A stretch of DNA of 64,000 nucleotides from Chitinophagaceae bacterium. GTDB lineage: Bacteria; Bacteroidota; Bacteroidia; Chitinophagales; Chitinophagaceae. The position numbers and the translations under genes are program-made. The stretch covers positions 62,001 through 126,000 of the forward strand of contig JAIYAN010000015.1 in NCBI GenBank assembly GCA_027489035.1, given 5' to 3'. Position 1 is the stretch's first letter. Each line of letters opens with the position of its first letter. Below, in pieces: positions 8,966-11,080 of the stretch. Under the pieces are notes generated by a model. It was not told where the DNA came from. It made no database searches and saw only the letters and a program-made list of their open reading frames with translations.

Positions 8966-8993
8966 AATTATCGCCATTAAAAAGGCGATAATT
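8966..8993. terminator. Bidirectional hairpin terminator between convergent pyrE and LEA-like gene
   Basis: AATTATCGCC-ATTAAAAA-GGCGATAATT with flanking T/A tracts; overlaps the last codons of the minus-strand gene. Confidence 0.75.
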
Positions 8994-9435
8994 TTTGTTT
9001 GGTCTTGTATTCAAAAGGTACCACTTTAAATATATTGGCTTTACCTGCCTTTATTTTCCCTTTTGCACGAATCTCCACTTCTTTGTTGAATAATCCAATC
9101 AAACTATTTTTGATGATGTTCTTCATGTCTACATCTACTTTAATCGGTAAAGTAAACCTATCTCTTTTGGGTATCCTTACCTGAACGTTTTGATCTACAT
9201 GTCCGAGGTAATTATCATTGATAAATAGGTCCATTTCTGTATGGTTCAATTCCATTCCAAAATTGTTTGGGTTGTAATAAATCAATTTTAACGAAAGGGT
9301 GGTTTTGTTAAAACCTAGATTCTCCAATTTCACATCTTTGTATTCTTTGAATTCCAAATCTTTAAATCCCGTACAAGAGAATAATGATAAGCTAATTAAT
9401 ATAGATATTAAAAAAGTATTTATTTTAAATTTCAT
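8977..9435 (-). CDS. LEA type-2-like lipoprotein
   Basis: Signal peptide with lipobox-like LSLFSC; body NLGFNKTTLSLKLIYYNPNNFGMELNHTEMDLFINDNYLG resembles LEA14/WHy domains. Confidence 0.7.
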   Translation of the reverse strand: MKFKINTFLISILISLSLFSCTGFKDLEFKEYKDVKLENLGFNKTTLSLKLIYYNPNNFGMELNHTEMDLFINDNYLGHVDQNVQVRIPKRDRFTLPIKVDVDMKNIIKNSLIGLFNKEVEIRAKGKIKAGKANIFKVVPFEYKTKQKLSPF

Positions 9436-10374
9436 TTGTTTTTATTTCTTTTAAAATTTATTTTTTTTAGAATGACAAATATTGCTTCTGGATTGGCGAT
9501 GAAACAACATGGATGGAAATTTCAACGATTAATTTTTTGTAAAGATAAGCATCCAGGTGTAAAGTGCACACATCATAACTGCCAAATTTAAGCACAAAGG
9601 AGTGTGGTTGATGGTGATCTTTAAAAATCTTTTTTGAGCCTTATTTTCAAGGTTTTGAAAAATCTTTCTTAGTTAAATTCATTAGCATTTGTATTAAAAA
9701 CAAGCTATAATTAGTCAATTGAAAACTTAAATTAAATGCTAAATATAAAATCAATAAAATAATATTGTAAAATACTAATAATCAATTTATTAAAACTAAT
9801 TATTTTAAATAAATAATTAAAATAAAACAACGTATTTTTATAAATAAAGTAGAAAAAATTACTCAATCGATTATTTTTAATTAAAATAGTCATAAGTAAA
9901 TGATTTACATTTAATTAATTAAATTTAATTGAAATAAAATGTTGTATAAAATAACGATTGTATTAATAACCCTATATGAAAATGGAATTTTTCGTTCAAA
10001 TGGGGCTAAAATAAATGATAAAAAAAAATATTTATAAAAATGCTTTGATTTAAATTTTGAAGTTTCTATGTTTGTCTCAGAAACGACATAAGCATTTATT
10101 AGTTTCTTTTAATTCCATATTTTTCCTTCTCCTACCGTTCAACCAGAATTCAATTTCAATCTATTTTACAATTTAACAAATATAAATAAAAAATTATTCA
10201 TTTGGGAGTAATTTCTATTTGTCAGTTTTAAGATTTGAGTTTTAGAAAAAACGAATAAAATAGATTTTAATATGAATTGCGTTTTTGAAAAAAAATCTTT
10301 GATAAACATGTAGGTTATACAAACAATCAGCATGTAGGGAAATAAAAATGTAATGGTTTTTAAGTTCGCTTAAA

Positions 10375-10565
10375 CACTAAAACATCGCAACCGATGGCTC
10401 CAATAATCCATCGGTTGCACCTTACCTGATGTGTTTTTTATGATAGTAGTATACAGACAAATTCCCCAATGTCTGTTTGAATGAAGTAGTTAAACGCTTT
10501 CTTTGGGGGTTTATGAATCGAGAGATTCAAACATCAAAGCTGCATGTCTATGCGGCTTTTTTTAT
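10375..10565 (+). ncRNA. Candidate structured non-coding RNA of unknown family, ending in an intrinsic terminator
   Basis: Perfect 11-bp hairpin GCAACCGATGG/CCATCGGTTGC (10387-10397/10408-10418); ACAGACA/TGTCTGT hairpin (10453-10459/10470-10476) whose loop CCCCAA (10464-10469) complements TTGGGG (10503-10508); TGAATC-GAGA-GATTCA; terminal AAAGCTGCAT-GTCT-ATGCGGCTTT + T run. 5' end is a guess from TAAGTTCG at 10361. Confidence 0.65.
10536..10565 (+). terminator. Intrinsic terminator of the candidate ncRNA
   Basis: 10-bp stem AAAGCTGCAT/ATGCGGCTTT (one G.U), GTCT loop, T7 tract; no T tract on the minus strand, so direction is +. Confidence 0.85.
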
Positions 10566-11080
10566 TTTTTTACGATAGTTACATTGTCGTAATGAGCCTT
10601 CATTTTTTCAATTAACTTAAATGTGGCTGGACAATGATCGATATTTTGTTTGTGCACATGCGCATAATCGGCCCATTTTTTCTTGGTTAAATGCGGAAAA
10701 CCTGAGCAATCTGCTGGTCTTATTTCATAAATACTGCACTTATTATCGGTTAAATTTAAAAACTGACAAGGCTGTGTGGTATTTACCATGTCTTTATTTC
10801 GGTCTTTTTTCAACCATTTTTTCTCAAATTCCAGTGGAGTTTGGTTAAAATGGGCAGATATGCGCTTTATATCTTTTGTGGTAAACGTTGGCGTCATTTT
10901 CTTGCAACAATTCGCACAAGTCAAACAATCAACTTCTTTCCAAACTTCTTCCGCAATTTTGGGCGTAAGCTGATCGATCCCTTTTGGAGATGCTTTTTCT
11001 GTTTTGTTTATAAATCTTCTGAAATCTTTTCTATAAAGCGTTAACCTTCTTTTGAAAGATCTAAAATTTACGGGAAGCAT
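10562..11080 (-). CDS. YkgJ-family cysteine-cluster protein (zinc/iron-chelating domain)
   Basis: CLTCANCCKKMTP...CQFLNLTDNKCSIYEIRPADCSGFP. Confidence 0.85.
   Translation of the reverse strand: MLPVNFRSFKRRLTLYRKDFRRFINKTEKASPKGIDQLTPKIAEEVWKEVDCLTCANCCKKMTPTFTTKDIKRISAHFNQTPLEFEKKWLKKDRNKDMVNTTQPCQFLNLTDNKCSIYEIRPADCSGFPHLTKKKWADYAHVHKQNIDHCPATFKLIEKMKAHYDNVTIVKK

Follow-up and report, generated by a model that had tools for sequence, protein, structure and literature searches.

The block at positions 10375-10565 of the window, the 64-kb stretch of Chitinophagaceae DNA analysed here, is best read as the conserved 3′ end of a transcript of ~485 nt, belonging to a new sRNA family whose members occur either as free-standing genes or as operon tails and would act in trans by base-pairing, a reading to which we give a probability of about 0.6. 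Its defining features are the sequence UUUUC(U/A)UUGGGGGUUA, an intrinsic terminator and a short hairpin; the core, adjacent hairpin and terminator of this Chitinophagaceae UUGGGGGUUA sRNA family are all present in the element, which scores 71 bits with covariance model R1 and 54 bits with model R2 in its own genome. By the Rfam criterion the family is new, and its kind, a terminator-ended bacterial sRNA or 3′ UTR element, is known. The Rfam 15 search that the earlier note on this DNA had proposed returned no family at or above its gathering threshold for the element, either in the window or in 20 related loci, where only tRNAs were recovered; the best sub-threshold match in the region was Phe_leader, at 28.8 bits against the 55 required. 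Regarding tmRNA, ARAGORN detected only a tRNA-His in the window and there was no Rfam match either, and no description of this RNA family was found in the open-access literature.

The region 9436-10561 is ORF-poor and AT-rich, as had been reported: it contains no ORF of at least 60 aa, and its G+C content is 21.6% over 9436-10375, compared with 38.7% over 10376-10561 and 32.7% for the whole window. It is flanked upstream by a gene for a LEA_2-domain lipoprotein (8977-9435) and downstream by a gene for a CxxCxxCC protein (10562-11080), both on the minus strand, and the statement that the block is not a leader of the downstream gene is supported. The 193-nt block folds better than 200 out of 200 shuffled sequences (energy of -54.5 versus -38.5 +/- 3.8, z of -4.2), none of the shuffles being equally good. 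Three of the structures claimed for it were recovered where they had been placed, namely an 11-bp hairpin with a 10-nt loop (10387-10418), a GAGA-capped hairpin (10514-10529) and a 10-bp terminator (10536-10559) followed by a T-run.

Comparison with relatives supports the proposal of a genuine, conserved plus-strand RNA endowed with its own terminator; here, as for the structure, promoter, distribution and upstream box of the family, the evidence is comparative sequence analysis. The last ~75 nt, comprising UUUCUUUGGGGGUU, a GNRA-type hairpin and the terminator, are nearly invariant in ~60 Ferruginibacter/Ginsengibacter-type genomes, and the part common to all relatives reads (A)GATGTTTTCTTTGGGGGTTACAGAAYCnnnnGRTTCTTAACAAA, followed by the terminator. 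On the plus strand of the window, this part consists of a single-stranded conserved core, TTTCTTTGGGGGTT, which is a putative seed (10498-10511), a core-adjacent hairpin GTTT-AT-GAATC-GAGA-GATTC-AAAC (10509-10532) and the terminator with a GTCT loop (10536-10563). The core is near-invariant in alignment A1 (n = 59), for which the collection scan used the core motif whereas the DNA and covariance model searches did not. Compensatory changes, another check put forward earlier, were found in these 59 distinct sequences with pairing kept at 8 of the 14 consensus pairs, seven of them in the terminator (which has nine) and one in the adjacent hairpin. The inner stem of this hairpin is GAATC/GATTC or GAACC/GGTTC in relatives (26 and 33 sequences, respectively), and its outer helix, otherwise GTTA/TAAC, has an A-U pair exchanged for U-A (GTTT/AAAC) in both the window and its nearest relative, L002.

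A plain DNA search found the block in 20 of 60 relatives (own genome included), all belonging to the same genus, for which 36 genomes were sampled, while none of the other genera of this sample was matched. A pattern scan of GTDB species genomes returned 66 contigs, mostly labelled Ferruginibacter or Chitinophagaceae and including Ferruginibacter paludis and Ginsengibacter hankyongi. Of the genomes sampled, a covariance model built from Ferruginibacter sequences matched 9 of 10 in the same genus and each of the 9 from one other genus, with scores of 71-94 bits in these two genera save one partial match (41 bits). Strong matches are usually single-copy, as is the exact core in the window's own genome, and weaker ones occur in other Chitinophagaceae genera. 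The joint model, applied to samples of 398 genomes from the order and 296 from the phylum, gave no credible member beyond Chitinophagaceae. Weak covariance model matches outside the family (L289, L290, L291) were rejected as terminators or coding sequence, and core matches lying inside coding sequence (L223, L234-L236, L241) were discarded.

The boundaries originally drawn for the block proved too narrow, since a promoter lies ~300 nt upstream of it. This Bacteroidota-type promoter (10044-10074, plus strand) has a -33 TTTG at 10044-10047, a 19-nt spacer and a -7 TATGTTTG at 10067-10074, and is the sole perfect occurrence of TTTG-N18-20-TATGTTTG on either strand of the 64 kb. Its position upstream of the element is kept in ~30 relatives, in which a second conserved block, 400-2100 nt upstream of the core, is a TTTG-N19-TATGTTTG promoter followed by a 5′ hairpin. 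In Flavobacterium, the experimentally mapped consensus places TAnnTTTG at -12 to -5 (PMC9723704); applying this rule to the window promoter sets the start at ~10079. Because the promoter at 10044-10074 is conserved, the block would be the 3′ part of a transcript of ~485 nt (10079-10563, plus strand), predicted from promoter and terminator and noncoding here: it holds no plus-strand ORF of at least 40 aa, the longest frame being 39 aa with a TTG start and beginning upstream of the start site. Identity between the window (L001) and L002 is 0.95-0.97 over promoter and core and 0.9 over the 11-bp hairpin; between promoter and core it is mostly 0.55-0.8, with high values at the promoter/leader and the 3′ end. 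A 5′ terminal hairpin is predicted at 10079-10107 (plus strand), and an equivalent is predicted, sequence by sequence, in most relatives; RNAalifold, run on an alignment that is not structure-aware, did not confirm it as a consensus.

Within the block, the 11-bp hairpin, whose loop is CTCCAATAAT and which is followed by CCTTAC (10387-10425, plus strand), is real. Eight different stems, each forming a hairpin of 9 bp or more ahead of CCTTAC, were found in the 29.6 kb preceding the core (450 nt per locus), whereas another 442 kb from these loci gave no such hairpin. Several of their loops share the letters CCAATA(A); in L056 the stretch also lies in an open frame, so a coding reason is possible there. 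Pairing of the loop letters CTCCAA with the TTGGGG of the core was considered and is not significant (P of 0.19). The 7-bp hairpin with its C-rich loop (10453-10476, plus strand) is lineage-specific and kept in L002. The hairpin and the CCCCAA of its loop are present as described; the H-type pseudoknot proposed between CCCCAA and TTGGGG is not supported, as a C-rich partner upstream of the core is no better than in dinucleotide shuffles (combined P of 0.31 over 67 loci; 0.54 for the window alone). This partner is a hairpin loop in the window and L002 only, and C-rich loops occur in some other clades. A helix between GATGTGTTT and AAACATC, said to enclose the pseudoknot domain, is not supported by L002, where the 5′ strand is gone but the 3′ strand is kept in otherwise well aligned flanks.

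What lies between promoter and core in most relatives is coding sequence, for either a ~125-aa secreted protein or a larger one with a Por_Secre_tail domain (Pfam). The ~125-aa proteins have a domain like the one preceding T9SS sorting signals and end 14-50 nt before the core; such small secreted proteins without a sorting domain are seen in L053, L058, L063 and others, and the one tested had no Pfam match. Often encoded alongside the larger form is a 52-75 aa protein bearing a W(A/E)LIPV-like motif. This small protein, variable and with a basic N-terminus, is encoded before the core in at least 12 genomes and ends 6-154 nt upstream of it (L040, L049, L067, L075, L042, L060, L061, L062, L084 and others). 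In the window, the sole recognisable fragment of sorting-domain sequence is TTATACAAACAATCAGCATGTAGGG (10315-10339, plus strand), a fossil of the region encoding LSKQSxxSKG in relatives, which corresponds to the TTATCCAAACAATCAGCAATGAGTAAGG-like sequence of L069, L040 and L054 and whose frame is broken. The most likely origin of the ORF-poor region is therefore a secreted-protein gene that decayed while the RNA ends on either side of it were conserved. Gene order upstream is kept (pyrE, a small metal-binding-like protein, the LEA lipoprotein, then the element) and the coding content varies; downstream genes vary, often comprising a giant protein that has an IgGFc_binding domain at its start, together with a PorP/SprF protein. 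A stretch of the sorting-domain coding region, GTTATCCAAACAATCA, is far better conserved than the rest and survives gene erosion (L040 at -534 to -506 and L054 at -352 to -324 relative to the core; also L067, L068 and L069), and is possibly constrained as RNA. Second copies of the core were observed directly 3′ of the stop codon of other T9SS-sorted genes in L225 (G009:C56) and L226 (G341:C2).

A purely structural 3′ UTR role is the main rival explanation: the element would be a module that merely stabilises or terminates the operon mRNA, with no role in trans, and the window copy would be a leftover after gene loss. The core does lie 14-50 nt past a stop codon in ~20 loci, the element ends in a terminator, and the second copies too sit directly after stop codons. 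Yet a terminator would not require such strong conservation of the single-stranded core, which has stayed unchanged despite the decay of the coding region, and separately promoted free-standing copies exist in other genera; all of this leaves the explanation rather unlikely. The free-standing sRNA of ~190 nt starting near 10370, as proposed in the earlier note, would account for a compact folded block with a terminator that is more conserved than the sequence just upstream. We consider it improbable, since the region's only TTTG-N19-TAnnTTTG promoter is the one at 10044, with none near 10370, and since the promoter-to-block space belongs to the operon in relatives. The claim of a self-contained 190-nt RNA with a pseudoknot is not supported, although the core itself is free-standing in other genera, and processing of the long transcript could yield a ~190-nt fragment. 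That the transcript is dual-functional and still encodes a tiny peptide is suggested by the 52-75 aa W(A/E)LIPV-like ORF located shortly before the core in at least 12 relatives; such an ORF is absent from the window and L002, whose short frames are not conserved, making this the least plausible reading.

The preferred reading, an sRNA family that is free-standing or forms an operon tail, draws on the layout seen in ~10 other Chitinophagaceae genera, where the core is a free-standing RNA gene of ~100 nt consisting of a GTGAAAAATCAC box, a promoter, usually a 5′ stem, TTTTTCATTGGGGGTTATATGCTGAC and a terminator; one genome carries three copies. Each of the 14 free-standing members examined has the GTGAAAAATCAC box (one being degenerate), placed 86-133 nt before the core and in some present as two boxes 21-22 bp apart, with the promoter downstream of the box. 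Exact boxes number 2-24 per genome, versus 0-1 for the reversed control. In three genera, the box is found between an aminotransferase gene and a histidine kinase/LuxR-type response regulator operon, at a divergent promoter; in many cases it comes in two or three copies spaced by 21-22 bp (L333, L337, L342; genomes G118, G159 and G175). Judging from its sequence context, GTGAAAAATCAC seems to be an operator serving a small regulon to which this operon would belong, the identity of the regulator being deduced from the location of the box. A similar palindrome, ACnGTAAAATTACnGT or GTGGAAATTACGGT, precedes the -33 element by ~8 nt in many of the Ferruginibacter RNA promoters. In the Ferruginibacter genome G371, the RNA promoter has a variant, ACnGTAAAATTACnnT, which recurs with one mismatch next to the response regulator's best homologue. 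Since this second palindrome does not clearly outnumber its control across the genome, its link to the regulator is suggestive only. Box and palindrome are both absent from the window's own clade, which lacks this mark of membership. Homology between free-standing and operon members rests on the ~17-nt core, the hairpin/terminator and the regulatory box.

Mechanistically, we infer that the RNA is made and that its 3′ end acts as an sRNA. In ~10 genera it would be a free-standing sRNA of ~100 nt under a GTGAAAAATCAC-type activator box, whereas in Ferruginibacter and a sister genus it would form the 3′ end of an operon for secreted or small proteins. In the window lineage the coding part appears eroded, so that the transcript would now be essentially noncoding. 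The exposed G-rich strand UUUCUUUGGGGGUU most likely pairs in trans with mRNAs, as may be deduced from the near-invariance of a single-stranded stretch between stable stems; the targets are possibly mRNAs of envelope or secreted proteins, and the RNA may be part of a two-component regulon. Genome-wide, the complement of the core showed no excess, long complementary targets being as frequent as reversed controls (400-kb samples), and the start codons of the window's own genome showed no enrichment of short seeds. For UUUUUCAU, matches to AUGAAAAA in G175 exceed those of shuffles (38 versus 8 +/- 5.5), an excess attributable to Met-Lys-Lys starts being common. We tentatively suggest that, in one lineage, a two-component-controlled sRNA family of the Chitinophagaceae turned into, or derives from, the tail of a hypervariable operon for secreted proteins, and that the window species has lost the coding portion, with mRNA tail and noncoding RNA interchanging through several intermediate states.

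The nearest functional comparator of the Chitinophagaceae family is Rfp18, an sRNA of Flavobacterium psychrophilum with a reported effect on secreted metalloproteases and predicted targets that include a secreted adhesin (PMC9723704). Like the present family, Rfp18 is a strongly folded Bacteroidota sRNA conserved within a genus, the likeness being one of description. As the present model gave no credible member beyond Chitinophagaceae in the phylum sample, nothing indicates that the two RNAs share an ancestor. The 3′ UTR-derived sRNAs of enterobacteria are likewise sRNA-like modules at the 3′ end of an mRNA that use the mRNA's own terminator; unlike them, the core described here is also a stand-alone gene in sister genera, its mRNA part has been lost in the window species, and it is known from sequence alone. 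Two-component-system-controlled sRNAs also exist, for example in enterobacteria, and resemble the free-standing members in that the box at the sRNA gene is that of a response regulator which apparently controls its own operon. Here, however, the regulator is deduced from box location, the box is absent from the window clade, and both phylum and promoter type differ.

A second, unassigned RNA family was also observed, with the sequence GGTTTTTCATAGGATATTGGATTxxAxxCGAGGCTGGATTTCTATCCGGCC and a T-run, close behind a TATCTTTGCA-like promoter element. It occurs in the own genome outside the window (G000:C20:149411-149855, L125 1412-1856) and in L126, L228 and L273, as tandem units of ~190 nt (three in the own genome, five in G677 and two each in G131 and G373); L125 and L273 gave no Rfam match.

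To our knowledge, very few regulatory RNAs have been described in Bacteroidota other than Bacteroides and Flavobacterium. As the family described here is absent from Rfam and comes with a defined promoter, core and candidate regulator, its role is directly testable. The loci also form a series, from mRNAs that encode proteins and end in a conserved RNA tail to a transcript that is essentially noncoding, and this bears on the origins of sRNAs.
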